A stretch of DNA of 64,000 nt from Ostrinia nubilalis (lineage: Eukaryota; Arthropoda; Insecta; Lepidoptera; Crambidae): the NCBI RefSeq assembly GCF_963855985.1, contig NC_087118.1:10622501-10686500 (forward strand), in the 5' to 3' direction. The notes beneath the pieces are model-generated. The model did no database searches. It worked only from the letters and a program-made list of their open reading frames with translations, and had not been told where the DNA came from. This document shows, piece by piece, positions 19,557 through 63,624 of the stretch (the stretch's first letter is position 1; the number at the start of each line of letters is the position of its first letter). The position numbers and the translations under genes are program-made.

Positions 19557-19710
19557 GAGGGACGACAACAGACAGGTCTATTAAAGGATTTAATATTGTT
19601 CATCAAAATTTACAAGGCCTGGCTGGCAAAGAATTAGAACTAGAATTGTTTTTAAAAAAATACGATGTTCATGTATTATGTTTAACCGAACATTGGCTTA
19701 AAATTATGAA

Positions 19711-22700
19711 TTGATGTTTCATATAGGAAATTATAAAGTTTGTAGTTCGTTCACCAGGGAGTCTGCTATTAGAGGGGGGTCACTCATATTATTAAATAAT
19801 CAATTTAAATACAAGGAAAGAAAAGACATTGTCTCACTCTCAGTCGAACGAACTATAGAACTTGCGTGTGCAGAGCTAGAGCAGTATATTATAATTGTAA
19901 GTGTGTACAAGCCCCCATCTGCAAATTACCAATTATTCGAATCCACTATGGAGGAGGTCTTAAAAAAGGTATTTAAATCAAATAAGAGAGTAGTTGTATG
20001 TGGAGATTTTAATATAGATTTATTAGATAATACTCAATATAAAATAAGATTCTTAAACCTTTTTAAATCTTTTAATTTATCACATCTTTTCAATGATCCT
20101 ACTAGAATCACTCCAACATCAGCTACTTGCTTAGATAACATTTTTTGTAACTGTGATATTCAAAGTAAATCAATAATTAATTGCCTTAGTTCAGATCATA
20201 GTGGACAATTGGCCACATTTGAACACCATCATGTCCCTAGTACAGTGGATGTTGTTTGTAGGCCAATAACAACTAACCGAATTGACAAATTTAAGAAAAA
20301 TATTTGTGATGGTATTGATAAACTTATATTAGATGACAATAATGTCGATCAAATTTATGAGGATCTATTCAGTGTTGTGAGTGAGGAATTCAAAACCACA
20401 TTTCCACAGAAAAAGATCCGAATAAATTCTGTTAAATGTAAATTTGATGACTGGGCTACAACTGGCATTCACAAGAGTAGAAATAAAATGTATGAATTAT
20501 ATAGTCTTAAAGCCGATACGCAAGATCTGAGTGTTATAGAATATGTTAAAAATTACTCAAAAATATTTAAAAAGGTTTGTTTGGCTGCTAAATCAAATCA
20601 TCTTCGAAACATGATTTTAAATTCTAATAATAAAGCTAAGGCTACGTGGAACATAATAAATAAACAAACATGTAAAAATAAATCGAAGGATAACACTTTT
20701 TCACTGAAAATCGGAAACGAAATTATAAATTCCGATACAGAAGTTGCAACCACATTTGAGACATTCTTCTCCAATATTGCGTCTGAAACAACTAAAGAAC
20801 TGAATTCATCACCAGTTCTTGCAGAGTCTCTTTTAAAATCTAATGTCACCGAGTGCCAGTGTCTGCTCCAGTTCAGGCATATAGATTGTAATACAATAAT
20901 TAAAACCTTTAGAGAATTAAATATGAAAAAAACTGAGGACCTTTGGGGAATCTCCGTCAGTATAATTGGAACAATTATTGACACCATAGCTCCTCACCTT
21001 GCATTCATTTTTAATACATGTATTGATCAAGGTTGCTTTCCTAGCTTAATGAAGTTAAGTAAAATAATTCCATTGTTCAAGGCTGGTGACAAATGTGACC
21101 CCTCTAATTTTCGACCGATTTCTATTCTACCAGTACTTAGCAAAATTTTCGAGAAAATTATTTTCCACCAACTTCTATCTCACTTCATTTTTAACAAATT
21201 ATTACACAATAAGCAATTTGGTTTTACGAAAGGTAGAAGTACTACTGACGCTGGGGTAGCACTATTGAAACACGTCTTTGATGCTTGGGAGAGTAAAAAG
21301 GACGCTGTTGGTATTTTCTGTGATCTTTCAAAAGCGTTTGATTGTGTAGACCACCAAACCTTACTAAACAAATTGCGACATTATGGTGTTTCGAATAAGT
21401 CACTTGATCTGCTGAACTCGTATCTCACAGGCAGAAAACAAAAAGTTTGTATTAACGGAACTGAGTCTTCTGGAGCACCTCTTACTATGGGTGTGCCGCA
21501 GGGATCAATATTGGGACCTTTGCTATTTCTTATTTACATTAATGACCTTCCTTACTTTGTAAAAGATCTGTGTGATATTGTGTTATTTGCTGATGACACA
21601 TCTCTCATTTTCAAAGTTGATAGAGGTAAAGTAAATTTTGACGATATTAATAACACACTCTCACAGGTTCTACATTGGTTCACTGTTAACAACTTATTGT
21701 TAAATGCAAACAAAACTAAGTGCATTAAATTTACCTTACCTAATGTGAGGCAGGTTTCCACGCAATTAATGGTGAAGAATGAACCATTAAATAGCATAAA
21801 TTCCACAACATTCCTGGGAATCACTTTAGATGCTAAACTTCAATGGGGTCCTCATATTGAAACTTTGTCAAAAAGGCTCAGTTCGGCTGCTTTTGCAGTG
21901 AGAAAGATAAGGCAATTAACTGACATTGAAACGGCAAGGCTAGTATATTTTAGCTATTTTCATAGTATAATGTGGGAAAGAGTCATTAATAAAAGGTTAC
22001 TTGAAATAACTAGCGTTACTGAAAACCAATGCGGATTCGTCGCCGGTAGATCCACAACTGATGCCATACACTCGGTCAGAATACTAATGGAAAAGTACAG
22101 AGACAACAAGACAGACTTGCACATGATATTCATCGACCTAGAGAAAGCTTTCGACCGGGTACCGAGAGAATTAATCTGGCACGCGCTAAGGGCTCAGAGT
22201 GTGCCCGAGCATTACATAATGATTGTCAAAGATATGTACCACCAAGTATCAACCAAAGTGCGAAGTCCAGCCGGAACAAGCAAAGAATTTGGCGTGAAGG
22301 TTGGGGTGCACCAAGGCTCCGCACTCAGTCCTCTGCTGTTTAATGTTGTTATGAATCATCTCACCTCAAATCTGCAACGAACGCCGCCATGGGACATCCT
22401 ATATGCGGACGACGTCGTAATGATCAGTGAAGATGTGAACAACCTACAGCAGATTTTAGAAAAGTGGAGGGAAGCTCTGGAAACATCTGGTCTGCGAATA
22501 AGCAGAGAGAAGACCGAGTACATGCACTGCAACTTTAGTGGCGTCAACAGCAAACACACCATCTGTCTGCAGAACACCCAGCTAAAAGAAGTGGACCATT
22601 TCAAATACCTAGGGTCAGTCATCAGTAAAGATGGGTCGATAGACACTGATGTCACCCATCGCATAAATACTGGGTGGATGAAATGGAGAGAACTATCCGG

Positions 22701-23163
22701 CGTGCTATGCGATACCCGAATGCCCGTGCGCATAAAGGGACGAGTATACAGAGCAGCCGTCAGACCAGCCATGACATACGGATCCGAATGCTGGCCGCTC
22801 AAAAAGCAGTACGAAAACCAATTGCACTGCGCTGAGATGAAGATGCTCAGATGGGCAGGTGGTGTAACTAGGCTGGACCATGTAAGAAACACACACATAA
22901 GAGGCACCTTTAAAGTGAGACCTATCCCAGCTAAATTGCAGGAGAGCCGTCTGCGGTGGTACGGACACGTCATGAGGCGACCACCCGACCATATGACCAG
23001 AAAAGTGCTAGACATCCAAACTAAGCCCCGCGGACGAGGAAGACCCCGAATTACATGGATGTCCGTAATCAATAACGACCTTAAAGAAGCCCAAGTTAAC
23101 AGTAAGACAGCCCAGGACCGAGCCGCCTGGAGACGCATGACGCGGAGGGCCGACCCCAAATAA
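19711..23163 (+). pseudogene. 1,150-codon fused frame with two reverse transcriptases
   Basis: One uninterrupted frame contains the CR1-type endonuclease (without its first 40 or so residues), the CR1-type reverse transcriptase (catalytic FADD at about residue 625) and, from about residue 754, the C-terminal two thirds of an RTE-type reverse transcriptase (catalytic YADD at about residue 895) with its C-terminal domain, ending RRADPK. The fusion is due to a nested insertion that happens to preserve frame. Whether it is ever translated is unknown; it lacks an obvious start codon in context, and nothing suggests a functional bifunctional enzyme. Confidence 0.8.
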
Positions 23164-23670: not shown

Positions 23671-24038
23671 CTTTGTACATTTTAAAGCATGTAAACCTTT
23701 GAAAAAGAGGCTGACAATAGTGACTGAGTTTCTTGCGCTGCTTCTTCTCAGCACTGGCCCATTTATTGTCCTGAAGCAGTGGTAGGGTTAATACTGGGAC
23801 GTGTAAAAGTGCTTTTTTTAAGCCTATTTACAGAAATAAATGAGTTTTAATGAGTTTTAATGAGTTTTTTGATTTTTTTCTGTCAAAACTAATAGTTGTA
23901 ACAAAAAAAACGAACAACAATTTTTTAGTTTAAGATATTGTACGTTTCACACATATTTTTTTTTCTTGTTTGGATCATCCATTTAGGAGGAGTAGGGATT
24001 CAAAGAGAGGTCTATTTTGCAGTTTTGCCTCACCTATC
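23671..24038 (+). other. LINE 3' untranslated region and flank
   Basis: 23671-23870 is the 3' UTR of the CR1-type LINE; a segment at 23708-23790 (TGACTGAGTTTCTTGCGCTG and following) is shared with the 3' UTR of the related LINE at about 33965-34035. 23871-24038 is a T-rich flank with no gene. Confidence 0.65.
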
Positions 24039-24297
24039 GCTATGGAAACCGCTGGGAAGGGGTATCTTTGTTCAACAATTAAGTAAAAACTAATTGACGT
24101 AGACTAATAAATTTACGTTCGTTTTGTAGAATAGCTCAAATACTAATAATACAATGCAAATAATACATACCTCAACAACCTGGTTTTTCTTGTGTTGGAA
24201 AATAACTGAAAAGTGAAAAAAGTCATGTTTTTTTCTAATTAAATCCATTCTTACTCCCTAAAAATGTATGAAACTTGTGTCCGTTTTCTACTTCTAC
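24039..24297 (+). mobile_element. Part of palindromic element B (centre to mid right arm)
   Basis: From CTATGGAAACCGCTGGGAAG onward this matches the right half of the complete B elements (for example 56920-57180), ending at CTTCTAC (24291-24297). The missing remainder of the same arm starts with CTTCTAC at 39121. The piece is thus split by everything between 24298 and 39120. Confidence 0.75.
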
Positions 24298-24673
24298 CAC
24301 AGAATAAGTAATAGTACAGGTACAGAAGGATTAATCCGCAAGACGATTTAAATAAATGCGAGTCTTGCTGCGACGCGATACAGTGGAATTCAGCTCGCAC
24401 AGCACTACGTACCTACAAGGAAAACCTTAGGAGAGGCCTTTGTCCAGCAGTGGACGTCATTTGGCTGAAACGAACGAACGCATTCTGAGCAGTAGTCATG
24501 GTAGGTTAGGTTCCTATACTATCCTAAGAATTATTGATTACCTACATGGCCAACATACCTTTCAGGATCTTTGGGAAGCGAAAAAAAAGAAAAATCCGGT
24601 AGATTTCTTTTCGAATTTAAACACCCGAACGCCGCTTATATTTCTTTCTCTTTATGTCCATTTTTAAATAATA
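24298..24673 (+). mobile_element. Left part of an insert in B, with an RTE/SINE-like 3' segment
   Basis: The segment lies between two copies of CTTCTAC (24291-24297 and 39121-39127) together with 38983-39120, as if about 520 bp had been inserted and later split by the LTR element. At 24431-24480 it contains GGAGAGGCCTTTGTCCAGCA and a (GAAC)n run, resembling the 3' end of lepidopteran RTE LINEs or their SINEs. Both inferences are tentative. Confidence 0.4.
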
Positions 24674-24678
24674 CTTCG

Positions 24679-24867
24679 TGTAGTGTTTGTATCTACGTAC
24701 TAGATAGATACAATACGCTGTCTCACGTACACAAGTGATAGGCAGTCACGTGACGTCGTTACGAGTGGGACGAGTCAGTCGTACGGCAGACGCCGGCGAG
24801 TACGGACGTGCCGCAGTGAGACGCTTGGTGTGACGGTGAGCCAGTGTGCACATTTAGGTACACTACA
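24679..24867 (+). repeat. 5' LTR
   Basis: 189 bp, TGTAGTGTTTGTATCTACGT at the start, CACTACA at the end, CG-rich compared with its surroundings. Reads identical to 38789-38977. Confidence 0.9.
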
Positions 24868-24869
24868 AG

Positions 24870-24882
24870 TGGCGACGAGGAT
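24870..24882 (+). promoter_or_regulatory. Primer-binding-site candidate
   Basis: TGGCGACGAGGAT begins two bases after the LTR. The initial TGG would pair with the CCA end of a tRNA primer. I cannot name the tRNA from memory with confidence. Confidence 0.5.
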
Positions 24883-25309
24883 AAATACTCATTTTTTGAA
24901 AAATAAGGAAAATAAAAGGTCAGTAAAATACATATTTTTGAAATAATAATTTGTAACAAACCTGCCATAATAATTAAAGTTCAGTAATGTGTCTGATTTC
25001 ATCGAGTTATGGATAAAATAACGATTATTCTGCTTTGGAAAAGGCATAATTATTTTGTTGTATGAGAATAGTCAAGTTAGCAGGCAAAAACCATTTTGGT
25101 TTTTATCATTATAAAATCAGATTTTATTAGAAATACTTATTCAGCTTGAAAAAAGCAATAAAGTGATTGGTGATAATAAGTAGTGATATCTATATACTTA
25201 TAATAAATCTGTAGAGAGGTCAATTCTGTACATGAAATATATTTTCAAAATAACTATCAGGGGGTGATTAGTGATCGATACTGATGCCAAAAATGCAATC
25301 AGTAAAATT

Positions 25310-25312
<3 letters not shown>

Positions 25313-25369
<57 letters not shown>
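25313..25369 (+). repeat. (GTCT)n microsatellite
   Basis: About 14 uninterrupted GTCT units inside the Helitron. Reading frames over it are artefacts of the repeat. Confidence 0.95.
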
Positions 25370-25370
<1 letters not shown>

Positions 25371-25544
25371 ATGTTCCTTATAGAAACAAAAACTACTCGA
25401 CGGATTTTAACGAAACTTGGTACAATTATTCTTCATACTCCTGGGCAGGTTATAAGATACTTAGGAATTCCCACGGGAACGGGCATTAGCGGGAAAATCC
25501 TTTTGTATGAAAAATCTAAACCGCTTAAGTTAGACGCTTGAAAT

Positions 25545-25925
25545 TTGGCAAGCAGGTACCTTAGTAAACTTAAAGCTTAGTTATAACAGGATATTGCAAA
25601 ATTCCTACAGGAACGGGAATTAGCGAGAAAAAAACATTTGTATGAAAAAATCTAAGCCACGTAAGATAGACGCTTGAAATTTGGCATGCAGGTACCTTAG
25701 TAAATTTAAAGCTTAGTTACAACAGGATATTGCAAAATTCTCACGGGAACGGGAGTTAGCGGGAAAAAACATTTGTATGAAAAAATATAAACCGCGTAAG
25801 TTTGGCATGCAGGTACCTTAGTAAACTTAAAGCTTAGTTACAACAGGATATTGCAAATTTCCCACGGGAACGGGAGTTAGCGGGAAAAAACATTTGTATG
25901 AAAAAATCTAAACCGCGTAAGATAG
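25545..25925 (+). repeat. Tandem repeat of ~120-139 bp inside the Helitron
   Basis: The word AGCTTAGTTACAACAGGATA (with small changes) recurs at about 25572, 25711 and 25831, each followed by a GGGAACGGGAGTTAGCGGGA-like word and CATTTGTATGAAAAAATCTA. The last spacing is shorter because a piece around GATAGACGCTTGAAA is missing. A more diverged first unit starts near 25440. Confidence 0.8.
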
Positions 25926-25977
25926 ATGAAGGGGGTAAAACGGGATCCACGCGTACGAAGTCGCGGGCGGCCGCTAG

Positions 25978-27437
25978 TTAGAAATAAATAAGTATTCAGC
26001 AGAAATCGGCCAAAACAAAATAAAATAAAAATAAATAAAAAGAAAAGTAATCAGACCTATGGTAAAGCGTATCTACGAATTTTAATGTTGTTTATAACAT
26101 AAACTACTTCCACCCACTCAGTTTGTCTAGATTTTTAACGTATAACTTAGTACTTTATGTATGAGAATAGACATACTCACATGAAGTTAAACGCTGTTAA
26201 TGTCGACGGCGTCCCAGCATTCGGTATTTATAAAAAGAAAGAATCGAATAACGTTCTGCGGCGGTATATTTGTAGTATTATATTGCACAATTAAAAGTGG
26301 ATCCAGCAATTGGTCAACGGGGTCCGGTACAGGTGGAAGAATTGGTGAAAAGGGAGTTTTTAGTATGGGGTCACCGGCATTGTGTTGAGAATATTTGATG
26401 GAACAACGCTAGCCGTAGAACACTTATAAGGACGAGTTGCCCGATGTCTAAGTGGTTCGTAGTTGGATTAGTCACCCGACAGTCTGGTGTGTATGACATG
26501 TACCACCTTAGGCAATTTGAGTCGTAAAATTGTATGTGTGTGAAAAAAAAAGTGTTTTCATTAAATTGGATAAAGCGGTATAATGTTTACTGTAAATGTT
26601 AAATGTAAATTATATTAGTTCAATTAATTATTCAATGTTCTTTAAATGTAATTCAATGGGAACACTATGAAAAAAAAAATAAAAAAAAGGAAAAGTATTA
26701 GTGGAGTGAAAATAAATGAAATAGTTTTAGTTGTCAGCGCTCTAAAATCTGATGAGTACTTAAAGAATAAAATGTTTACTTATCTTGCATATAATTTGTT
26801 TAATGTTGAATTGGGAATAAAAAGTGAAAATGAAAAATGAAATGTTTTATATTTTCATAAATGAAAATGGTTTACAACATATTTAATTTTATTTATTAAA
26901 CAATGCTTCAACAGCACTTAATTGTATATAGGCAGGAAGATACTACTTGATATTTTGGTACTTGTACATTCCTTTTAAGTTTGAAATATTTAAGAAAAGA
27001 TAATGTTTTACACATAATAATATTTTCTTAAATAAGCTTGAATTTGAATCCCGAAATCAGGCATAATTTTGAGATTCATTGATAAAGTTTCAAATATCCT
27101 TGAATAAATAAAATAAAAGTTATTTATTTCAAGCATGGGCCATAAAAGTATTAGTAACAAAGTTCTTAGAATCTACGTTAGTAAATTACAATACAACTAC
27201 AAGATTACACACAAGTAAAATATGATAGTTTTAAATCTTTGAAGTCCCTCACGGTTTCTGGTTTAAGAAGAACGTTATTTTCGTTAAGAATTACAATTCA
27301 TTTACTCATAAATATGCTAATTATCAATTAAATGATTTATACTAGAAATAAACTGATAAAACATTAGCTTTAAACATTGCTTAAGCGCTAGAATAATGAG
27401 CGTCAAGAGCACCTGCGGATTTACATTAAACGATTCA
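25978..27437. other. AT-rich LTR-element interior, no gene
   Basis: No coding signal. This may be original internal sequence of the LTR element, because no other repeat ends are visible. It contains AT-rich runs around 26570-26880. Confidence 0.4.
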
Positions 27438-27530
27438 ATAATTTATATCCTCTTATCATCATCATCAACAGACCTTTGAGGTCCGCTGCTGGTATAGACC
27501 AGCAGGTTTTGTCATAAGTCTTCACGCTTG
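27438..27530 (-). mobile_element. 3' end of an RTE/SINE-like repeat, minus strand
   Basis: On the minus strand the sequence reads CCAGCAGCGGACCTCAAAGG, then CTGTTGATGATGATGATAAG, the kind of (GAT)n-tailed end seen in lepidopteran RTE-derived repeats. Upstream extent is unclear. Confidence 0.45.
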
Positions 27531-27912
27531 GCAGGCGTTTTGGAGAACGTAGTTTGTGTTTGGGATTCCTAATAACAAGCGTGTATTGAGTATGCAACAT
27601 GACCGTGATAAGAAGATGCCTGAGGGCCCAGTATCATTCTTTGAAATTGTAAGTGAAGAATAGTTGGATTGGATGTTCTCAGTTCGTTGGGTTGGAGACT
27701 GTACCAGGATGCCGTAGCGTAGCTCGGTGGAAATAAGTGTTTGCCTGTGGTATCTGCGGATAGTGTGGTGCAATAGTACGGTACTCCTGGGTGGTTTAGT
27801 CGGATCTTGCTGAGTAGTAAGGTCTTAAGAGGGGAGACTGTACTAGAATATTGTGGCTGTATTCTGGTAGAGGGTGGTGTTTGCCCTGAGTAGCCAGTTG
27901 GAATTCGGTAGT

Positions 27913-28570
27913 GCGATATTTATTTATTTATTTAAACTTCGGTGCACAGACTAACGGTGCACTGTGGCGGACTTGGTGCCGGATGGCATTCTCTGCCAGT
28001 CGGCCGCGGGTCGTGTAGAGGGAGTGGGGCGATGCAAAAAAAAAATACAATTACATTTTTGATAATAAACCTACTTACATAAGATTACATTAAAATAAAT
28101 GACATAATACAAATAAATATAATAGACATACACATAAATACATAAACATAATAATATTATAAATGTACACATGACTCATGTCTGAGATAGCGAGAAAATG
28201 GAGAAAAAAGGTCATTCCTTGAAATGTTTGCGCAGAGCCCTTTTGAAAGTAAATTTGGAAGAAGGTTTGCGTAATTTGGTCGGAAGGCCGTTCCAGAGCC
28301 GTACAGCGGAGACTAGGAAAGAGTTGGACATGAAGCCGGTGCTATGATGAGGGGTGGCAAGCTGAAGAGTCTGACTAGAGCGAAGATTTCTATTGTGAGT
28401 GGAGTGGAGGTACTGAAATTTATCTTTTAAATAAGATGGAGAGTTAGGATTGAAGAGAATCGGATGAAGCTTACAAAGTGAACGAAGATATCTACGCTGT
28501 CTGATGGGAAGCCAACCAAGCTGCGAGCGAAAAGGGGAGATGTTCTGAGGTGAGATACTTCTGGGTGGTG
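27913..28570 (-). pseudogene. 5'-truncated LINE: C-terminal ORF2 fragment and tail
   Basis: The minus strand from about 28545 reads QLGWLPIRQRRYLRSLCKLH and continues with SAVRLWNGLPTKLRKP to RALRKHFKE and a stop at about 28217, the typical C-terminal end of LINE reverse-transcriptase ORFs ('LWN-LP' region). The 3' end is an (AAAT)n tail, seen as TTTATTTATTTA at 27918-27932 on the plus strand. The similar words TACTCCTGGGTGG (27781) and TACTTCTGGGTGG (28557) occur on both flanks and hint at a duplication or an older repeat. Confidence 0.7.
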
Positions 28571-28667
28571 CAGTCGGATCTTGCTGTGTTTAGCAAAGAT
28601 CATAAAGCCATTGACTGTTTGACTGGTTGACTTAGGTTCCCGAGCCTGTAGCCGTATTCACGTAACA

Positions 28668-28922
28668 AAACTTCAACGGCATGCAAGCGATTTGATCGCT
28701 GGCGTCACTTTTCGTATTCACGTGTTAATCGCCCGATTTTGTTTTGATTTCGTTTTTATGCGTATTCAATCGTAGTCTCTGCAGTATTCACCTATTACCT
28801 ATTTTGAAATTTGGTTCAAGTGATTAAACGTCAAATGACAAACCGCTGAGTTGGGATCCTATCGATTTAGAACTGTTTTCATTAGGACGTCGGACGATGT
28901 GTCAAAATACGTGAATTAGGCC
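28668..28922. mobile_element. Possible MITE with 'TATTCACGT' ends
   Basis: GCCGTATTCACGTAA at the left and TACGTGAATTAGGCC at the right are imperfect inverted repeats bounding about 255 bp, and TATTCACGT recurs once inside (about 28712). No clear target duplication was found, so the call is weak. Confidence 0.4.
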
Positions 28923-28929
28923 ACTGTTG

Positions 28930-29439
28930 TTTAATTGATATTTTAGAGAAAATTTTGGTAATTTTGCTCAATGATTTGTGGATCTCAGTGATCTTCAATT
29001 TTACAATTAATTGGAATTGTTATTAGTAGTTGATTGGAATCGTAATAAGTAGCTTAAAATAGGCTATGGTTACAAGTTAGTAACATAAGATATTTAGTTA
29101 GATGGGTTTTATTTGAAAGAGTAACTAGTAGTAGGTACTAAAAGTTTAGTTTTCTTGCTCTGAAAGCATATATATTTTATATTTCATGAAGAAAGATTGG
29201 CCGAGCGGATACTGGCTGTTCTTCTTAGTTTTTCAAAGGAACATACGAGGACGCATATCGCGCAGGATGGCCGTGTTGCAGACAGTCGTGAGCGCGTGCA
29301 CTAAACTGGAATACGGGCGCGGCACCTGGAGGCGAATCGGCACATCACCGTTGGAAGCGTTTCCGCAGAGCCATAATGATCATAGCAGGATGGATCGAAC
29401 TGACTTTCACTTCTGACGCCGCCAAGAGAAGAGATCACC
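28930..29439. other. Unexplained segment with a GC-rich part
   Basis: 29200-29420 is distinctly GC-rich and contains a 76-codon open frame (29186-29416) with no recognisable domain. It could be a decayed coding fragment captured by a transposon. It abuts satellite monomers at about 29446. Confidence 0.35.
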
Positions 29440-29445
29440 GCTTGA

Positions 29446-29463
29446 TGCTCATTAAATTGGATA
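29446..29463 (+). repeat. 26-bp satellite, leftmost monomer
   Basis: CATTAAATTGGATA directly left of element A1 matches the monomer of the array at 35242-35617, showing that A1 landed inside that array. Confidence 0.7.
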
Positions 29464-32214
29464 TACAGGGTGTTTCTTGTAAGGTGTCAAGCCGAAGGTA
29501 GGTGATAGGTGAGGACTGTACCTATCGATTTCACCCCCATGTATGTTCTACGATTTTTCGTAGTTTAGAAGTTATCGTTAATTTTGTGATTTTTTCAAAT
29601 TTTATGACCTAGTAGGCTTTAAATTTTTTTATCTTTTTTTTGGGTTGACTTTTCTCAGATTTCTTTTTTTTTACAGATTCCCTATTAATTGCAGATGTTT
29701 GAAAAAAATAATCACCTTCCTATCTTTGATGAAAGATGACAAAATTTTTGCTAGAAACATAAAAAATATGCTTTTAGCAGAACATTCTAAAATTTTCAAC
29801 TCAAAAGTTTAAAAAAAAAAGAAATTCCATTGGTCCAAAATAATTTTAAAAACTGCGCAGTTTTCTGAACTTTCATAATAATACAAAAAAATATGTACTT
29901 AATAGGCCATTATTTTCTGTAATCGCTCCACTAAAGTGGTAAGTCGGAAATTCCGTTACATGTTTTTGACTTTCTTAGGACTAACTAATGTTTGCAATCC
30001 CCTAAGTTTACGTTACGTAGAACACATTTAGAGACAATAACTGAACAGAATTTTTTTTTTTATCCACAACGAGGAAGCTCTTGCCCTTCATCTGACCTGA
30101 TGGAAACTGAATTGGATGATCAGCGATAATATTCAATAATTGCATAGAGAAGGGCATCTTCCCCGACCTCATGAAACATAGTAGACTAATGCCATTATTT
30201 AAGTCTGGTAGCAAAACCGACCCTGGCAATTATAGACCCATTTCTATCTTGCCCGCTCTAAGCAAGATTTTTGAAAAAATCATACAGGAGCAACTTATGA
30301 TTCACTTTGGCTCTAATAAACTATTTCATAGTGAACAATATGGTTTTACCAAGGGTCGTTCCACCACCGATGCCGGGGTTGCACTACTTAAACATATCTT
30401 CGAGGCTTGGGAGAATTCTCAAAATGCACTAGGGGTCTTCTGTGATCTCTCAAAAGCTTTTGACTGCGTAGAACATCAAACGCTAATTCGCAAACTGCAC
30501 TATTATGGGGTGAAGGACTCGGCTTTGGATTTAATACAATCCTATTTAAACTTTAGAGTTCAAAAAGTTGACATAAATGGTGTTTTGTCTTCTGGGTCAC
30601 CTGTGAAAATGGGAGTTCCGCAGGGGTCCATTCTGGGTCCATTCTTGTTTCTTATATACATTAATGATCTACCATATTTTGTTAAGGACTCTTGCGAAAT
30701 CGTGTTATTTGCTGATGACACATCTTTGATTTTTAATATTGATAGAAGTAAAAATAACTTTGACGATGTAAATAATGCACTAACAAGAGTTTTAAGTTGG
30801 TTCACTACAAATAATTTACAACTCAATGCAAAGAAAACAAAATGTATAAAATTCTCTTTGCCTAACGTAAAAACAGTTAATACCCAAATAGAACTTAATA
30901 ATAATGCAATCGATCTGGTAGACTCTACTGTATTTCTGGGAATTACCCTGGATTCAAAACTCCAGTGGGGCCCCCATATAGAAACTCTGGCGGGAAAGCT
31001 CAGCTCAGCGGCTTTTGCAATAAAAAGGATACGGTCATTAACCGATGTTTCAACAGCTCGCTTAGTCTACTTTAGCTACTTTCATAGCCTAATGTCATAT
31101 GGAATCATGCTATGGGGCAAAGCTGCAGATTTTGAAACAATATTTATTCTGCAAAAACGTGCGATAAGATACTTGTATAAAATGAAAGCAAGAGCGTCCC
31201 TTAGAGAATTGTTTAAAGAAATTGGCATTCTCACGGCCGCTTCACAATACATCTTAAACTGTATTCTATTTATTCAACAAAATATTAACGAATTCAAAAA
31301 GAAAAGTGATATTCACCAAATTAACACTAGAAATAAAAATAAATTGGCTATACCCGCTTTTAGACTTAACTAGCTGACCCGGCGAACTTTGTTCCGCCTT
31401 TAATGGCAATAAATAAGCAGACTTTTTTTTTATTTCGAACGGGATAAAAAGTATCCTATGTCCTTCTCCTGACTCTAAACTACCTCCCTGACAATTTTCA
31501 GCTAAATCGGTTCAGCCGTTCTTGAGTTATAAGTGGAGTAACTAACACGACTTTCTTTTATATACAGGGTGTTTCTTGTAAGGTGTCAAGCCGAAGGCAG
31601 GTGATAGGTGAGGACTAGACCTATCGATTTCACCCCCATGTATGTTCTACGATTTTTCATAGTTTAGAAGTTATCGTTAATTTTGTGATTTTTTCAAAAT
31701 TGTATGACCCAGTAGGCTTTAAATTTTTTTATCTTTTTTTTGGGTCGACTTTTCTCAGATTTCTTTTTTTTGACAGATTCCCTATTAATTGCAGATTTTT
31801 GAAAAAAATAATGAACTTCCTATCTGTGATGCAAGATACGAAACTTTTGCTAGAAACATAAAAAATATGCTTTTAGCGGAACATTCTAAAATTTTCAACT
31901 TAAAAGTTTAAAAAAAAAAAAGAAATTCCATAGGTCCAAAGTAATTTTAAAAACTGCGCAGTTTTCTGAACTTTCATAATAACACAAAAAAACATGTACT
32001 TAATAGGCCATTATTTTCTGTAATCGCTTCACTAAAGTGGTAAGTCGGAGATTCCGTTACATGTTTTTGACTTTCTTAGGACTAACTAATGTTTGCAATT
32101 CTCTATGTTTACGTTACGTAGAACACATTTAAAGACAATAACTGAACAGAACATTGTTTTATCCACAACGATGAATCTCTTGCCCTTCATCTGACCTGAT
32201 GGAAACTGATGGAT

Positions 32215-32310
32215 GATCAGCGAGCTTCACTCGGAATCTAAACCACAGAAGAATTGGCTGTCCTAAATAGGTGGCCTTACCACTAGACCACAGTGGTGGT
32301 TGTTACTTTA
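32215..32310 (-). other. tRNA-like segment in A2
   Basis: The minus strand reads TGGTCTAGTGGTAAGGCC, a good match to a tRNA A box, followed about 35 bases later by GGTTTAGATTCCGAGTG, a degenerate B box. The same segment is in A1 (about 34137-34220), A3 (47822-47905) and A4 (58446-58535), so it belongs to the family consensus. It may be a captured SINE head. Confidence 0.45.
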
Positions 32311-32359
32311 CGATTAAATTCGATATACCTACATATTAGTGTGAGAGAAAGGGAAAGAG

Positions 32360-32442
<83 letters not shown>
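32360..32442 (+). repeat. (TG)n(AG)n microsatellite in A2
   Basis: About 26 TG units followed by about 14 GA units. The same position in A1, A3 and A4 carries similar repeats of differing lengths. Confidence 0.95.
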
Positions 32443-32445
<3 letters not shown>

Positions 32446-32477
32446 ATGGGTGTAATGATTTAATTTAAAGTAAATAT

Positions 32478-32620
32478 TCAAAATGTCCGCCGTTGACCTG
32501 AATGCACATTCGACAACGACGCAAAAAACCTTCTTCTTCATTTTAATTTGGTTTTGCGCTTCAGTCAGCTTTGTCCGCAGTTCATCAATATTTTCATATT
32601 CCCTATGGTATTTTTTTGAT
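32478..32620 (-). pseudogene. Transposase C-terminal remnant in A2
   Basis: The minus strand reads REYENIDELRTKLTEAQNQI and then, in another frame, VLRRCRMCIQVNGGHFEYLL and a stop. A basic CI-x-V-x-GGHFEHLL end is what I recall from Tc3-like DDE_3 transposases with an N-terminal DUF4817 helix-turn-helix. Only about 50 residues survive. Confidence 0.6.
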
Positions 32621-34278
32621 TTTTTTTTGATACCAGATGAAGGGAAAGAGCTTCCTCGTTGTGGATAAAAAATGTTCTTTTCAGATATTGTCTCTAAATG
32701 TATTCTAAATAACGTAAACTTAAGGGATTGCAAACATTACTTAGTCCTAAGAAAGTCAAAAACATGTAACGGAATCTCCAACTTGCCACTTGAGTGGAGC
32801 GATTACAGAAAATAATGGCCTATTAAGTACATGTTTTTTTGTGTTATTATGAAAGTTCAGAAAACTGCGCAGTTTTTAAAATTACTTTGGACCTATGGAA
32901 TTTCTTTTTTTTTTTAAACTTTTAAGTTGAAAATTTTAGAATGTTCCGCTAAAAGCATATTTTTTATGTTTCTAGCAAAAATTTTGTATCTTGCATCAAA
33001 GATAGGAAGTTGATTATTTTTTTCAAAAATCTGCAATTAATAGGGAATCTGTCAAAAAAAAGAAATCTGAGAAAAGTCGACCCAAAAAAAAGATAAAAAA
33101 ATTTAAAGCCTACTAGGTCATACAATTTGAAAAAATCACAAAATTAACGATAACTTCTAAACTATGAAAAATCGTAAAACATACATGGGGGTGAAATCGA
33201 TAGGTCTAGTCCTCACCTATCACCTGCCTTCGGCTTGACACCTTACAAGAAACACCCTGTATATAGATAAAGTGTTTGCCACTTTTATGGGACAAGGTAT
33301 CCATTTTTATAACAAAGTCCCTGATAAATATAAAGAGCTACCGTATAATAAATTTAAAGGTATAGTTAAAGATCACATGCTTAAAAAAGCCTATTATACA
33401 ACTCGAGATTTTCTTAATGATAAGTCATCCTGGGAGTAGGATTATGGTCCTCTCATGCTCGCACTAAAAAGAATTAAAATGAAAAGTAATATTGTATAAA
33501 CTAATAATAATTTCTCAAATGTTATAGTGTCATGCTTCTCAATCTGGACTGTTACTTAGCGTTATTATTAGTTTTTTTTTAAAGAGATAACTTGGCATTG
33601 TCATTCTCACTAAAATGTCTCTGGGGTGGTGGCGTAGTGAGGCGGGTCGTTACATTCCCTCTAATATGGTCGAGTGAAGCGATGGCTGGTTCACTCGTCA
33701 TGTCTGTGAACAGGCGCTGCTTTCGGGGACTGGTCAATTTAAGTTATTCAAATTTATGTATGCGAGTCATTTCTACTAGTACCTTAATATGTAAGTCTAG
33801 ATATTAGCACGTCACTACCTTGTTTAATATACCACGCAATCTTGTATACCCATTCTTATGATACACCATACAAGAATGCTTGGTAAATTCAGTGAACTGC
33901 TCCTGAATCGAATGTACCTACTACTACTATTTCTATTTATTTATATTAACCGGCAGACAGTGGTGACTGAGTTTGTTGCGGCGCTTCTTCTCAGCACTTG
34001 CCAAATGTTGGTCTCGAAGCGCTGGTAGGGTAAAAAGATTATGAGACATGTAGAGGCTCCTTAAGAGCATATGACGATTTGTAAGAACTATTTATTAGTC
34101 TAAACAAATAAAGAAATTTTGACTTTGACTTTGAGCGAGCTTCACCCGGAATCCTAAACCACAGAGGAATTGGCTGTCCTAAATAGGTGGTCTTACCACT
34201 AGACCACAGTGGTGATTGTTACTTTACGATTAAATTTGATATACCTACCTATTAGAGTGTGAGAGAAAGGGAAAGAGT

Positions 34279-34310
34279 TTGTGCGTGTGTGCGTGTGTGC
34301 GTGTGTGCGT

Positions 34311-34397
<87 letters not shown>

Positions 34398-34419
34398 TGA
34401 GAGAGAGAGAGAGAGAGAG
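34279..34419 (+). repeat. (TG)n(AG)n microsatellite in A1
   Basis: Interrupted TGTGCG units, then about 38 TG units, then GA units. Apparent His/Thr-rich frames on the opposite strand are artefacts. Confidence 0.95.
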
Positions 34420-34439
34420 CAAAAAAGGGTGTAATGATT

Positions 34440-34600
34440 TAATTTAAAGTAAATGTTCAAAATGTCCGCCGTTGACCTGAATGTACATTCGACAACGACG
34501 CAAAAAATTCTTCGTAAATTTACAAAAGCATCTTCTTGCATTCTAATGTGATTTTGTGCTTCAGTCAACTTTGTCCCCAGTTCATCAATATTTTCATATT
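34440..34600 (-). pseudogene. Transposase C-terminal remnant in A1
   Basis: LTEAQNHIRMQEDAFVNLRR followed, after a frame change, by the CI-x-V-NGGHF end. It corresponds to the remnant in A2, slightly longer because the AFVNLRR part is retained. Confidence 0.6.
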
Positions 34601-35241
34601 CCCTGTTGTATACCAGATGAAGGGCAAGAGCTTCCTCGATGTGGATAAAAAAATGTTCTTTTCAGTCATTGTCTCTAAATGTGTTCTACATAACGTAAAC
34701 TTAGGGATTGCAAACATTAGTTAGTCCTAAGAAAGTCAAAAACATGTAACGGAATCTCCGACTTACCACTTTAGTGGAGCGATAACAGAAAATAATGGCC
34801 TATTAAGTACATGTTTTTTTGTGTTATTATGAAAGTTCAGAAAACTGCGCAGTTTTTAAAATTATTATGGACCTATGGAAGTTTATTTTTTTCTCAAACT
34901 TTTAAGTCGAAAATTTTAGAATGTTCTGCTAAAAGCATATTTTTTATGTTTCTAGCAAAAAATTTGTATTTTGCATCAAAGATAGGAAGGTGATTATTTT
35001 TTTCAAACATCTGCAATTAATAGGGAATCTGTCAAAAAAAAGAAATCTGAGAAAAGTCAACCCAAAAAAAAGATTAAAAAAATTAAAACCTACTAGGTCA
35101 TAAAATTTGAAAAAATCACTAAATTAACGATAACTTCTAAACTACGAAAAATCGTAGAACATACATGGGGGTAAAATCGATAGGTCTAGTCCTCACCTAT
35201 CACCTACCTTCGGCTTGACACCTTACAAGAAACACCCTGTA

Positions 35242-35617
35242 TACTGATATCCGTTAAATTGGATGTACCCGTGATATCCATTAAATTGGATGTACCCTGA
35301 TATCCATTAAATTGGATGTACCCTGATATCCATTCAATTGGATGTACACTGATATCCATTAAATTGGATGTACCCTGATATCCATTCAATTGGATGTACC
35401 TGTGATATCCATTAAATTGGATGTACCCTGATATCCATTCAATTGGATCAAATCAAATCAAATCAAATTTCTTTATTTGCGTAATTCCAGGTACATAAGT
35501 GGTCTTACATAGATTTGGTAGGTTTCACTGATATCCATTAAATTTGATGTACACCTGATATCAATTAAATTGGACGTACCCCCGATATCCATTCAATTGT
35601 ATGTACCCTGATATTCA
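35242..35617 (+). repeat. 26-bp satellite array, left block
   Basis: About 11 monomers of 24-28 bp with consensus TGATATCCATTAAATTGGAT plus GTACCC. A 79-bp LINE tail in reverse orientation interrupts it at 35448-35526. The array continues at 38210 beyond the piggyBac element. The monomer contains TTAA, the piggyBac target. Confidence 0.9.
35448..35526 (-). mobile_element. LINE 3'-tail fragment with (GATTT)n
   Basis: The minus strand ends AATAAAGAAATTTGATTTGA and further GATTT units. Only about 80 bases are present, a strongly 5'-truncated insertion into the satellite. Confidence 0.65.
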
Positions 35618-35949
35618 TTAACCCGCCGAGCGTAAGGTTGGAAAAAGTAACAAATAGCGCTAGGTGGGTGTAGCACACCCAGATCGTGATTGTGTGGTTA
35701 TTATACACTATTATTTTAAATATCTATTTTCTTTGATATTAAACTGTTATTTAGTTATATTTTGAACTTATTTAAGAAACAAATTACAATAAATAATTTA
35801 GCAATGTTATTTATTTAAGAAATCAAGAAAATTAACAATTAGAACTTACAATGGCACATGTTTATGATTTTTTGTCAAAAATATGAAAACAAAAACAATA
35901 AAGACTATTTTTTCTTTAAATAGACTCAACATAAGAACAAAATAACACT

Positions 35950-37596
35950 AAAAAAACCGGCCAAGTGCGAGTCGGACTCGCGCACCGAGGGTTCCGTACA
36001 AACCTGCAAGGTTTACAAAGTTCGTTCATTACGACAATCGAGTCATAACTATGGTATTTTTATTGCAAAATGAAATTCATAACATTACAATGGGGAAAGT
36101 AACTACTTAAAAGGAGAATGCCCAAAAGTGGTATCGCTCGAAATCTAATTGTACATTGAGGGTACCACACCGTAAATTCCTTTCTTCATTTGTAATGATT
36201 TGCGAAAGTAGTAAGAAATTGTAAAACCTCCGGAATAAAATCCGATTTTAATAAAAAGTATTGTAACAATGAGCTGCAATCAGCAACACCTATCACCGAG
36301 CAACGACACTACGTAGTTCGCACGGTTGTCAATAGATGGCGCTGTTCGTAGTTAGCTCGCGGTATCATTTGATTTTTTCCTGTCCTTAAGTAGTCAGGGC
36401 TAACCACAAATCCCTTTCCCCTTGCAAAATGGTATAAATAACATTGGTATGCACGCAAGATTATTTTGTGTTTATATCTGATCCTTATCAAATAACGCTA
36501 GCTTTGGCGTAGCTAGGGTTTTTTTTTAGGCAGGGTAACTATCTACAAATATAAAACAAGTACATATTCTAAGGTAAAACCTGTAGCTATGCCAATGGAC
36601 ACCATTCATTTCACTTAAACCAAAATTACGTCAAAGTCCGGAGTTTTATAAAAAAGAAATATGCGGTATGATTATTTTTTATTTATTTATTTTTCCTATA
36701 TTTGCATTATAGGTAGGTACCTACCTCAGCGTTTTGAATTTTTGCGTTGATTTAGAATTTCTCACAGTTTAGAGGCAATTAGATTTAAGAAGTGTTTGAT
36801 ATGAATTTCAACTTTAATATCTACGCGTTCATGTGAAAAAGGGTAGGTAGTAAGTTTATAATTATTAAAAAAATATTTTATGTCATGTAAGCAAAAATAA
36901 TATTTTAAATTTTATATAACTTCAAATTTATCATTTTCGCAATTTTTCCTTTATCTGTACTATATAACGTTGCTTCGTGCCGAATTTCAAGATTCTGAGT
37001 TCACAGGAAGTACCTTGTAGGTTTTGATTCCCTAGCGTGTGACGGAAATTCGTCTAAGGTGTCGGTATAAACTGCTGTATCTTTTGATCACGTTAACTTA
37101 GAAGTTTGATTTTTTTACTTCTTAAAGGGACAATAGATCTAGGTATTTGGTATAAATTTCAATTTGATACCTTTATTCGTTCGTGAGAAATAAGGTAGTA
37201 AGTTTCATTTTATTAAAATATTTTTATTATCTTATATAACTAAAAAAATGTAATTTTCGCAATTTTTCCTATATTTGCATTATATGACAATGCTTTATGC
37301 CAAATTTCAAGATTCTGAGTTTACGGGAAGTATCCTGTAGGTTTTGATTCCTTTGCGAGTGTCGAAAATTTGTTGAAAATATCGACATAATCGGCTGTAT
37401 CTTTTGATTGGCTTGGCTTAGAAGTTTGATATTTTCACAGCTTAAAGGGACAATAGACCTGAGTATTTCATGTGAATTTCAGCTTGATACGTTCACGCGT
37501 TCTTGAGATAAAGGGTCTTGACAGACGGACGGACGGACAACAAAGTGATCCTATAAGGGTTCCGTTTTTTCCTTTTGAGGTACGGAACCCTAAAAA
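35950..37596 (+). mobile_element. 'GGCCAAGTGCGAG' lepidopteran repeat inside piggyBac
   Basis: It begins AAAACCGGCCAAGTGCGAG and ends GAGGTACGGAACCCTAAAAA; GGGTTCCGTAC occurs near the left end (35990) and in reverse complement at the right end. Inside, a unit of about 310 bp carrying TTTCAAGATTCTGAGTT and GTAGGTTTTGATTCC is repeated (about 36950-37255 and 37258-37510) with a third diverged part before it. I recall this repeat as very common in Lepidoptera; its class is unclear to me. Confidence 0.7.
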
Positions 37597-37669
37597 TGGA
37601 TAATAAAACTAATAAAAAAATACTTAATTCGTTTTGAGATTTTGTGCAGTTTTTACGGACGAATTTTTG

Positions 37670-37915
37670 TTACTGTGAACCATTTTGTTCCATGTTTTCC
37701 CAACAAATAACTACCATTGCCTTCGCCATTATTCTCTATCAATCCTTCATGCTGCCCTTCGTCATACATCTCCTACTCCTGTGTCACTATCAAAATTTCT
37801 TTCGTTGACATCATCAATATTTTGGTCACTACCAGACTTGTCGGAAGAACTGACTTCAGTTTGTTTGAAAAGACCTGATAATCTATTTAATTATCTTCGT
37901 AAGACATTCTAGATC
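37670..37915 (-). pseudogene. piggyBac transposase N-terminal remnant
   Basis: The minus strand reads an acidic, Ser/Asp-rich stretch (SSSDKSGSDQNIDDVNERNF), then after a frame change a segment ending GSYLLGKHGTKW. An acidic N-terminus followed by a G-K-x-x-x-K-W motif is usual in piggyBac transposases. The catalytic DDD part is missing. Frames are broken, so the call depends on the surrounding terminal repeats. Confidence 0.5.
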
Positions 37916-38209
37916 TTTAGCCTGAAGAAAAACCAAAAAAATCGATAAAATAATAAAAATAAAATAAAATGTGTTTGATCAAATTCATTACAAGTAGCGT
38001 AAGGCGGGTGTCACGCACCCGCGGACAGCTTCAACCTCGTCCTCAGCATACCCCGGGCGGCGGTCGCCTGAAACAGTGGCAAGGGACGCTTCCGTATGTC
38101 CCTCCCCGCAGCTACTCAAGCGCACGAAGCATAACAACAATTCGTTATTAAAATATTAATCGATTTTTCAAGGTCTGGGTGTACCACACCCAACCTTACG
38201 CTCGCCGGG

Positions 38210-38525
38210 TTAAATTGGACGTACCCCTGATATCTATTTAATTAAATTTACTCTGATATTCATTAATTTGGATGTACCCTGATATCCATTAAATTGGACG
38301 TACCCTGATATCAATTAAATTGGACGTACCCTGATATCTGATATCCATTAAATTGGATGTACTATGATATCCATTAAATTGGATGTACCGTGATATCCAT
38401 TAAATTGGATGTACCCTGATATCCATTAAATTGTATGTACCATGATGTCCATTAAATTGGATGTACTCATGATATCCACTAAATTGGATGTAATTTTTTT
38501 TTCAGGCAACTGATATCCTTTAAAT
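38210..38525 (+). repeat. 26-bp satellite array, right block
   Basis: About 11 more monomers of the TGATATCCATTAAATTGGAT type, degrading towards 38525. It is the continuation of the block ending at 35617. Confidence 0.9.
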
Positions 38526-38778
38526 GGGATGTAACCCGGATCTGTTAGGTAGACTTGTTGTTTACTAAATTCAAATTAACTTATTTGCATTAATTGAACG
38601 TAACTGAAATTGGATGTTTATTAAAGTAATGTATAATAGATATAAAAAAAAAAAGAGAGTGAGACGTATGAGTACAATTCAGTCGGTGTTATCGCTGTAT
38701 AGCGATCTTTTCCATACTTCTATTACAATAATTAACCTTACATTTACTTGACAAAAACTTTCATTAAAATTTATTAAC

Positions 38779-38788
38779 AAAGAAGGGA
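38779..38788 (+). promoter_or_regulatory. Polypurine tract
   Basis: AAAGAAGGGA directly precedes the right LTR, the expected plus-strand primer site for an LTR retrotransposon. Confidence 0.7.
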
Positions 38789-38977
38789 TGTAGTGTTTGT
38801 ATCTACGTACTAGATAGATACAATACGCTGTCTCACGTACACAAGTGATAGGCAGTCACGTGACGTCGTTACGAGTGGGACGAGTCAGTCGTACGGCAGA
38901 CGCCGGCGAGTACGGACGTGCCGCAGTGAGACGCTTGGTGTGACGGTGAGCCAGTGTGCACATTTAGGTACACTACA
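38789..38977 (+). repeat. 3' LTR
   Basis: 189 bp identical by eye to 24679-24867; followed by the target duplication CTTCG. Confidence 0.9.
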
Positions 38978-38982
38978 CTTCG

Positions 38983-39120
38983 ATCATAGAATTAGGTACT
39001 ACAACGCACGCGAGCGTCCTGACGGGCGCGCGCGTGACACTCGACTGATATAATACCCGCCGGCGGGGCGCTTCGCTGTAGGTAATTATCGGATGTACCG
39101 CGCGGAGTGAGCCAGGCCTG
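38983..39120. other. GC-rich right part of the insert in B
   Basis: CG-rich segment with GCTGTAGGTAATTATC shared with about 15670. It continues the flank at 24298-24673 across the LTR insertion. Confidence 0.4.
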
Positions 39121-39363
39121 CTTCTACTAGTAGATAATTTTAATGGCTATCGCATGATATAAAATATTTGCTTATTAATGTTAAGTTACCCACGTTTTCA
39201 CTTGTTTTTGAAGGAAGAGGTGAAAACTAAAAATTAATTAATACTTAAATCCTCGTAAGTTTGCGAGAAATGGGTCAAGCCCCAAATTTGAAGTATTTTC
39301 ATCGATAAAATTGTCCATAGATTACGCCCTTAAAGTTTGATCACTACATGCCCGGACACATTG
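39121..39363 (+). mobile_element. Outer right arm of split element B
   Basis: Starts with CTTCTAC, the point where the piece at 24039-24297 stops, and runs to CCCGGACACATTG next to TA (39364-39365). The left half of this B copy is missing. Confidence 0.75.
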
Positions 39364-39365
39364 TA

Positions 39366-39649
39366 TACTTGAAGCTGCAAAACTAGTTAAACAAAACCCC
39401 TATCTTTTCAAAAAAGCCAAAGACGTTTTCCCACGTAATACTAGGAATTGCAATAGACTAGTCCTTGAGTTCATCCCAAAAAGTACTCGTATTCAAAAAA
39501 ACTGTTTCTGCATGTGTGTCCAAATCTATAATAAACTTCCTCAAGATATTAAAGAACTGTCCTTTAATCAGTTTAAGACCACATTGCAAAAGTGGCTTGT
39601 CGCGCGATTATTCTACTCTCTCCAAGAATTTTTAAGCTATAGGGAATAA
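39366..39649 (+). pseudogene. LINE ORF2 C-terminal fragment
   Basis: Reads LEAAKLVKQNPYLFKKAKDV, then FIPKSTRIQKNCF, IYNKLPQDIKELSFNQFKT and ends FLSYRE with a stop. The 'YNKLP-x-x-I' segment corresponds to the 'LWN-LP' C-terminal region of LINE proteins. No catalytic part is left. Confidence 0.65.
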
Positions 39650-39703
39650 TCAGCAAAGTAATACCGTAATAATTATATGTAATATAAATATTTCTTCGAT
39701 ATA

Positions 39704-40748
39704 CAGTGTGTCCGGGCATGTAGTGATCAAACTTTAAGGGCGTAATCTATGGACAATTCTATCGGTGAAAATACTTTAAATTTGGGGCTTGGCCCATTTC
39801 TCGCATATTTACAAGGATTTAAGTTTTTAATTTTAGGTTTTCACCTCTTCCTTCAAAAACAAGTGATAGCGTGGGTAGTTTAACATTAATAAGCAAAAAT
39901 TTTATATTATGCGATAGCCAATAAAATTATCTATTAGCAGAAGTAGAAAACAGATACAAGTTTCATACATTTTAAGGGTGTAAGAATGGATTTAATTAGA
40001 AATAAACACGATTTTTTTCACATCTTTTTCAGTTATTTCCCAACACAAGAAAAACCAGGTCGTTAAGGTATATTTTATTTGCATTTTATTATTAGTATTT
40101 GAGCTATTCTACAAAACGAATGTAAATTTATTAGTCTACATCTATTAGTTTCGACGTAATTGTTGAACAAAGATACCCCTTCCCAGCGGTTTCCATAGCG
40201 CACGCGACATGCGAAAATGCACTGCCTGAAAGAATTACACAACCTATTCCGATTACTATGGAAACCGCGGGGAATGGGTATCTCTGTTCAACAATTACGT
40301 CGAAACTAATAGACGTAGACTAATAAATTTACATTCGTTTTGTAGAATGGCTCAAATACTAATAATACAATGCAAATAAAACATACCTTAACGACCTGGT
40401 TTTTCTTGTGTTGGGAAATAACTGAAAAAGGTGAGAAAAAAATCATGTTTATTTCTAATTAAATCCATTCTTACTCCCTTAAAATGTATGAAACTTGTAT
40501 CTGTTTTCTACTTCTACTAAAAGATAATTTTACTGGCTATCGCATGATATAAAATATTTGCTTATTAATGTTAATTACCCACGCCATCACTTGTTTTGAA
40601 GGAAGAGGTAAAAACTTAAAATTAAAAACTTAAATCCTTGTAAATATGCGAGAAATGGGTCAAGTCCCAAATTTGAAGTATTTTCATCGATAAAATTTCC
40701 CATAGATTACGCCCTTAAAGTTTGATCACTACATGCCCGGACACACTG
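39704..40748. mobile_element. Palindromic element B2
   Basis: 1,045 bp, ends CAGTGTGTCCGGGCATGTAG and reverse complement, TA on both sides (39702-39703, 40749-40750). Almost the whole element is one inverted repeat of about 490-bp arms around a loop of about 60 bases starting CGCACGCGACATGCG. No coding capacity. Confidence 0.9.
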
Positions 40749-41231
40749 TATTTGCATGCTATTGTTGATGGCTGGATAGGTGATCATATTTTGTTATTTT
40801 CGACCTTCTGTACACCCTATTCAAAGACAAATAAATATTTCTATTTCTATTTCGAACCGTTACTTCAAAATCTGAAGAAGGCGCAGTCATCACCACGTCA
40901 CGTCATCATCGAGCAGCAAAATCGGGGACAACAGAGCGGAGGCTCATCAACGAAAGCTATCACAAGCAGCAAATCGAGGACAACAGAGCAGAGACTCATC
41001 CACGAAGGCTGTGACGCACGCAGACGAGGTCCAGGTTGCCTCGCTTCCCGCTTCCACGCAGTTTATCTGATTCTTCATCATCGCTTGCATCTTCTCTTTA
41101 CTGCACCTACGCTTAAGTATCTTTTTTCATTACATTTTACACAGATCGTTATAATTTTCTCATAACCGCTATAGTTTATTCATTGTCAGTTTCAACTACC
41201 CCACTTCATATTAAATTAATTTCTATTCACA

Positions 41232-43516: not shown

Positions 43517-43690
43517 GGCGCGAGTAAGCAACGTAAGCTTCAATTGGGTTTATTTAATGCTGGTTCTCTCGGTACACGTCACGATGAGTTCATAGTAGCT
43601 GTGGAAAAGCATCACGTCGACCTACTGGCAATAAACGAGACGTGGCTGCGTGAGGGGCAGGACGCGCGCGCACCGGCGGTGCCGGGATAC

Positions 43691-47614: not shown

Positions 47615-47641
47615 ATTAAATCATTACACCCTTTTTTGCTC

Positions 47642-47680
47642 TCTCTCTCTCACAGACACACACACACACACGCACGCGCA

Positions 47681-51978: not shown

Positions 51979-51981
51979 TAG

Positions 51982-52019: not shown

Positions 52020-52020
<1 letters not shown>

Positions 52021-63622: not shown

Positions 63623-63624
63623 TA

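Follow-up and report, generated by a model that had tools for sequence, protein, structure and literature searches.

Structure of the element and its family

The 64,000-nucleotide stretch of Ostrinia nubilalis DNA studied here (the window, C31:10622501-10686500, C31 being contig NC_087118.1) contains a 14.3-kb long terminal repeat (LTR) retrotransposon at positions 24679-38977; genome comparisons were made in the same 495-Mb assembly. The element has direct LTRs with TG...CA tips that are equal at 189/189 positions, a 5-bp target site duplication, a primer binding site (PBS) and a polypurine tract (PPT) (Table 1). A first-pass annotation, made from the letters of the window alone, had proposed these features and had read the whole as a young, gene-less element similar to the large retrotransposon derivatives (LARDs), and in these respects it was borne out. 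A search of the window with the LTR's opening 39 bp hit only the two LTR starts (≤3 mismatches; 0 in 100 shuffles). The PBS, found likewise in 10/10 family copies inspected, equals the first 13 nt of a tRNA-Ser(GCT) primer given in the available sections of a published account (PMC9072684). Both LTRs contain a candidate core promoter composed of an initiator (Inr) and a downstream promoter element (DPE), an arrangement that arose in 52/20000 order-1 simulations; it predicts a transcript start at LTR position 99. A protein search using an LTR reading frame gave no match, and none was obtained in viral-contig, genome-contig and phage collections, which by design hold no insect genomes.

Table 1. 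Features of the LTR element in the window (positions of the whole 64,000-nucleotide stretch; LINE, long interspersed nuclear element)
Feature	Positions	Strand	Remark
Left target site duplication CTTCG	24674-24678		sequence check
5' LTR, 189 bp	24679-24867	+	identical to right LTR
Candidate core promoter, Inr TCAGTC and DPE GGACG at +28 to +32	24775-24808	+	motif match
Native interior, block 1	24868-25188	+	aligned in other copies
PBS TGGCGACGAGGAT, tRNA-Ser(GCT)	24870-24882	+	begins 2 nt past LTR
Helitron-like insert	25189-25977	+	TC...CTAG ends, between A and T
Native interior, block 2	25978-29465	+	aligned in other copies
Antisense non-LTR retrotransposon C-terminal fragments, native	27522-28589	-	present in other copies
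First monomer of native 26-bp satellite array	29442-29465	+	sequence comparison
Outer palindromic TA-target element (29466-35239) with TA duplications	29464-35241		holds LINE and inner palindrome
5'-truncated LINE in outer palindrome	30127-34133	+	AGCGA duplication 30122-30126, 34134-34138; RVT_1 7.5e-38
Inner palindromic element (31565-33259) with TA duplications	31563-33261		within LINE
Native 26-bp satellite, block 2	35242-35621	+	contains native 79-bp LINE tail 35449-35527
TTAA-target (piggyBac-like) element (35622-38209)	35618-38213		TTAA at both ends; copy-specific
Native 26-bp satellite, block 3	38210-38516	+	aligned in other copies
Native 3' interior including PPT	38517-38788	+	aligned in other copies
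PPT AAAGAAGGGA	38779-38788	+	abuts 3' LTR
3' LTR, 189 bp	38789-38977	+	identical to left LTR
Candidate core promoter, right-LTR counterpart	38885-38918	+	motif match
Right target site duplication CTTCG	38978-38982		sequence check

The lack of gag/pol noted in the first-pass annotation was confirmed by Pfam analysis of 41 frames inside the element, comprising 34 of the 47 frames of at least 40 aa in one frame list, 6 of the 29 in a second list and the nested frame at 30120-31373; the remaining frames were those in the Helitron, the TTAA-target element and overlapping LINE frames. The sole match above cut-off was the reverse transcriptase of the nested LINE (frame 30120-31373). In the ten copies outside C31 (L011-L020), the longest open frame comprised 248 aa, and none of ten frames taken from L011 and L017 reached a Pfam cut-off. 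Thus, gag/pol was found in no family member examined, by Pfam for the window copy, L011 and L017 and by frame length alone for the rest of L011-L020.

Querying the genome with the LTR yielded 71 candidates; LTR statistics refer to the 40 of these that were scored, 16 of which were identical over 189 bp, the window pair included. The junction of LTR and primer site occurred at 19 places (≤1 mismatch; no control match), one of which, on contig C27, belongs to a different element bearing gag-pol. The window element is a member of a gene-less family of roughly 20 copies with a native unit of ~6 kb, the length across which the shared interior aligns. Ten copies lie on eight other contigs (C9, C12, C14, C15 (two), C16, C23 (two), C43, C32), and six further C31 copies have both ends. 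Matching 5-bp target duplications flank 17/17 complete copies and differ between copies in most cases, which shows that the conserved interior was multiplied by retrotransposition. LTR pairs differed by 0, 1, 0, 3, 1, 0, 0, 2, 0 and 0 substitutions in L011-L020 and by 1, 1, 2, 3, 1 and 1 in the six other C31 copies, three of which also had gaps. Two copies with one end each (c2.51M, which had the highest private rate, 23/2452, and c12.15M) did not enter the tests of length, LTR differences and private rates. A strong conservation of the LTR relative to the interior was considered and rejected: single pairs suggested it (0/356 LTR versus 98/3312 interior differences between the window copy and L011), but the means over 136 pairs were 1.1% (LTR) versus 1.9% (interior). 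The barley LARDs are said to have LTRs of several kb, from which the 189-bp LTR of the moth element differs, so that it is LARD-like rather than a LARD in the strict sense.

Native interior and copy-specific inserts

Alignment of the copies separated the parts that were retrotransposed from those that were not. The window copy has kept slightly more than 5.1 kb as in other copies (24679-25188, 25978-26357, 26359-29465, 35242-35621 and 38210-38977); at 26357/26358 it has lost some 780 bp still found in other copies. Both segments that the first-pass annotation had taken as interior (24868-25188 and 38526-38788) were native, but the true interior is far larger and includes most of 24868-29465 and the satellite blocks. 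The region at 27.4-28.6 kb and the satellite, initially read as later inserts, were native by copy alignment, and this reading was rejected. Part of the antisense fragments (28215-28589) resembles a LINE at 48579-48863 (33%, E 1.6e-10). The right junction of the 79-bp LINE tail was present (≤2 mismatches) in 13/17 other copies covering the site. Since the satellite, the antisense LINE fragments and the 79-bp tail lie at matching positions across contigs, they were copied through RNA. Within its LINE fragment, L011 has an additional short-period tandem repeat (3626-4327, minus strand) whose translation repeats ATQAS; a subgroup of copies has this repeat (reference positions 3870-4189).

The large transposons behaved differently. 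The insert at 25189-25977 has the TC...CTAG ends, A/T insertion and lack of duplication of a Helitron; its site was empty (GATA/TTAG, ≤1 mismatch) in 17/18 other copies, the eighteenth did not reach the site, and a filled junction was found in 0/18. Filled junctions of the TTAA-target element were likewise found in 0/18, and the satellite runs unbroken across the TTAA site, with a 4-bp overlap, in c9.87M, c7.48M and c9.25M. The native empty site of the outer palindrome is CATTAAATTGGATATATACTGATATCC as seen in other copies; its form GGATATATACTGAT (≤3 mismatches) was present in 16 copies, whereas c12.15M lacks coverage and c0.95M is occupied. The left junction of the outer palindrome occurred once genome-wide (≤3 mismatches). 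In the nest, the LTR element is outermost; its satellite holds the palindrome, the palindrome holds the LINE, and the LINE in turn holds a short repeat and, next in order, a second palindrome. The best named protein relatives of this LINE include those of Pararge, Parnassius, Euphydryas and Mythimna, so that the window's repeat content is lepidopteran. With TA duplications at their exact ends, the palindromes have a Tc1/mariner-type target, and the TTAA duplication and inverted ends of 35622-38209 a piggyBac-type one; no transposase was found in either, so that both labels refer to the target type only. A second element lies inside the TTAA-target element near 35954-37592.

These results divide the claim of the first-pass annotation that whole DNA transposons and a satellite array had travelled as cargo in a master copy. 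The claim stands for the satellite, to which the LINE fragments and the 79-bp tail can be added, and it fails for the Helitron, the palindrome together with the LINE and the inner copy inside it, and the TTAA-target element. The annotation had expected that, if it were wrong, other copies would carry gag/pol and lack the cargo; they lack the large inserts, and they lack gag/pol as well. The window element is thus very probably a young member of a gene-less, non-autonomous LTR family, into which the large transposons inserted after integration.

The LTR element sits inside a further unit (24298-24683 and 38983-39117) that interrupts a palindrome of a second family (~1.05 kb, TACAGTGTGTCCGGGC ends; pieces at 24038-24297 and 39118-39367), with CTACTTCTA/CTGCTTCTA at the break; full copies of this family lie at 39700-40751, 56363-57417 and 62571-63626. 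A BEL/Pao element in pieces occupies 41424-53126 (DUF1759 gag-like frame, Peptidase_A17, integrase zinc-binding), and a single 1153-codon frame at 19702-23163 with two reverse transcriptase stretches is apparently a LINE inserted in frame into another LINE.

Age of the insertion and copies on C31

Zero differences over 189 bp limit the age of the insertion to ≤0.8% substitutions per lineage (95% confidence), and the private interior changes of the window copy (30/3932, 0.76%) give an upper bound on age. The frame of the nested LINE runs unbroken through 417 codons up to the inner palindrome and 57 past it, as would be likely only for a young LINE (e.g. P 0.07-0.21 at 1%, assumed indel rates). 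The first-pass view that the nested elements were too diverged to postdate the LTR pair fails at these values. Its proposal to date the pair against the palindrome arms was also rejected. Left arms of the inner palindrome and of the copy at 57.8 kb differ at 16/612 sites and right arms at 11/613, versus 23/612 between the two arms of the inner palindrome; left matches left and right matches right, so that the arms diverged before the copies split and do not serve as an insertion clock. The copy at 57.8 kb (57794-59642) and one at 46827-48569 are the two other copies of this nested palindromic element in the window.

Several points weigh against nesting after a recent integration. The Helitron and TTAA junction evidence is confined to 18 other copies. 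In c0.95M, a palindrome occupies the same TATATA with an identical right junction, its left flank differing by 8 bp. If all 30 private interior changes followed insertion, 2.9 LTR differences would be predicted (P(0)=0.06), and a five-deep nest beneath difference-free LTRs puts a mild strain on the timing. The timing is tight but possible, and LTR gene conversion would relax it.

Transport of the whole transposons through RNA, from a master copy that already held them, would account for the shared palindrome site and for the LTR identity, and small nested pieces such as the 79-bp tail do get copied. The c0.95M palindrome, however, lacks the LINE and is not a sister of the window's outer palindrome: the two differ at 92/1469 sites (6.3%) and share 1 site solely with each other, versus 8 that c0.95M shares with another window copy, while the surrounding LTR elements differ at 94/3911 (2.4%). 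It was therefore read as independent, and two separate palindrome insertions into the same TATATA appear to fit best. Moreover, the interior plus strand contains 35 AATAAA motifs versus 21.4 ± 4.5 expected, and for the inner palindrome by itself the predicted fold has 609 pairs between the arms at -1050.8 kcal/mol, features that would make the full length an awkward template. Together with the filled-junction counts and the unique left junction, which already contradict it as far as the large inserts in the present assembly are concerned, this makes such transport very improbable. The c0.95M copy (C31:949030-979750, L024-L026 and L041) suggests a strong target preference of the palindromic element, other ends of which likewise lie at TA-rich sites.

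In comparison with the ten copies elsewhere (5.6-9.6 kb), those on C31 were long: 6/7 complete C31 copies reach 14-47 kb (the six other than the window's measure 5.9, 17.8, 24.7, 30.4, 32.5 and 47.2 kb; Mann-Whitney p=0.005, or p=0.004 with the C32 copy regrouped). Because C32:2.28M, parts of C43:14.5M and C41, and 31/71 LTR candidates were left out of this comparison, long copies outside C31 may be missed. The effect is not uniform on C31, where c6.88M is short (5.9 kb) and free of large inserts. LTR differences (means 1.3 versus 0.7) and private rates (0.47% versus 0.33%) were only mildly higher on C31 than elsewhere (p=0.08 each).

An older element whose LTRs were made identical by gene conversion would explain the missing LTR differences, and the C31 copies do hold much nested DNA relative to theirs. 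LTR differences are nevertheless few across the family, also in copies free of nested DNA, and the small excess of private changes on C31 argues in the same direction; we regard this explanation as improbable. The concentration of LTRs on C31 (15/40 scored, 1.0 expected; C32 has 4/40, 0.4 expected) could also point to segmental duplication of C31 as the origin of part of its copies, the window's included. However, the 7 complete C31 copies are each flanked by a perfect 5-bp duplication of their own and contain different nested inserts, so that such an origin is extremely improbable. Perhaps C31 is a W-like chromosome, which would explain both the LTR concentration and the copy length.

A candidate helper and related systems

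The gag-pol-bearing element on C27 has, at C27:6603700, a 171-bp TGTAGTGTTTG...CACTACA unit, followed by the same PBS as in the gene-less family and an open gag-pol frame of at least 599 codons (RVT_1 1.7e-9) whose relatives are named K02A2.6-like. Its LTR matches that of the window at 72% over 94 bp (E 1.6e-6), and the Inr-DPE spacing is equal with the relaxed motif TCAKT, the strict TCAKTY being absent. A 34-bp tandem unit between its PBS and the frame contains TCCATTAAATTGGA, as does the 26-bp satellite unit of the family; apart from this repeat, no similarity was detectable between the two interiors. Read from its 5' half with the left LTR, this Ty3/gypsy element is the likely helper of the gene-less family.

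In the mechanism we propose, the LTR promoter would drive a ~6-kb RNA carrying the satellite array and the LINE fragments, reverse transcription would start from tRNA-Ser bound at the PBS, and capsid, reverse transcriptase and integrase would come in trans from a gag-pol-bearing Ty3/gypsy relative such as the C27 candidate. Once the copy had integrated, the Helitron, the palindromic TA-target element (with the LINE inside it and the second palindrome inside the LINE) and the TTAA-target element would have arrived in succession. In the gag-pol element the TCCATTAAATTGGA repeat lies in the 5' untranslated region (UTR), in the gene-less one close to the 3' end. That it acts in cis as an RNA packaging or dimerization signal common to both is a doubtful proposition; if true, it would let the gene-less element take the helper's proteins.

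By analogy, the closest known system is the set of satellite-bearing gene-less LTR families of Culex quinquefasciatus, and the moth element is of the same kind. As described in the accessible part of the report (PMC3286476), cqUNK comprises 38 families without coding sequence that have LTRs >98% alike, PBS, PPT, target duplication and tandem repeats between the LTRs; one element reaches 14.6 kb, and several have LTRs near 190 bp with tRNA-Ser (cqUNK_9, 193 bp, and cqUNK_22, 182 bp, both Ser). The moth family shares the gene-less and young state, PBS and PPT, internal tandem repeats, ~190-bp LTRs and tRNA-Ser. It differs in that the authors of the Culex study found no master copy and describe the repeats as not family-specific, whereas the moth genome contains a gag-pol relative with shared LTR tips, PBS, promoter spacing and repeat core, and the family has the same satellite in the copies examined.

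In the passages available on Culex Mag elements (Ty3/gypsy; PMC3286476, PMC3391268), LTRs measure 119-304 bp in the rows given, target duplications are mostly 4-5 bp, the PBS is mainly tRNA-Ser or tRNA-Leu, and three elements have tandem repeats in the 5' UTR. LTR size and PBS are alike in the moth, and the C27 element also has 5' UTR tandem repeats; the gene-less family differs by its lack of gag/pol and by a satellite near the 3' end. By PBS, LTR size and the K02A2.6-like names of its relatives, the C27 element is a candidate Mag member. With LARDs, as outlined in the accessible text of PMC4528315, the family shares a long non-coding interior, LTRs, PBS, PPT and presumed trans-mobilization. 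Terminal-repeat retrotransposons in miniature such as Wukong have, in the same text, LTRs of 100-250 bp, PBS, PPT and no genes, in a total of <540 bp; the moth unit resembles them in all but its ~6 kb, 17/17 complete copies measuring at least 5.6 kb. Oyster Helentrons also spread satellite-like arrays according to the available part of PMC7492417, but by a rolling-circle rather than an LTR route. Literature searches for LARDs of Lepidoptera, or for RNA-mediated copying of nested cargo, returned nothing usable.

To the Culex picture the moth family adds a likely helper with which it shares a repeat core, and empty-site proof of which parts were copied and which were not; a gene-less family and a plausible helper in one genome were absent from the Culex case. 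The general lesson is that the true cargo of a retrotransposon is told apart from nesting after insertion by copy comparison, not by LTR identity. Copies on C31 and elsewhere are similar in LTR age, so that the family is usable as a clock for measuring how fast insertions build up on a repeat-rich chromosome, and the dependence on a helper becomes testable.

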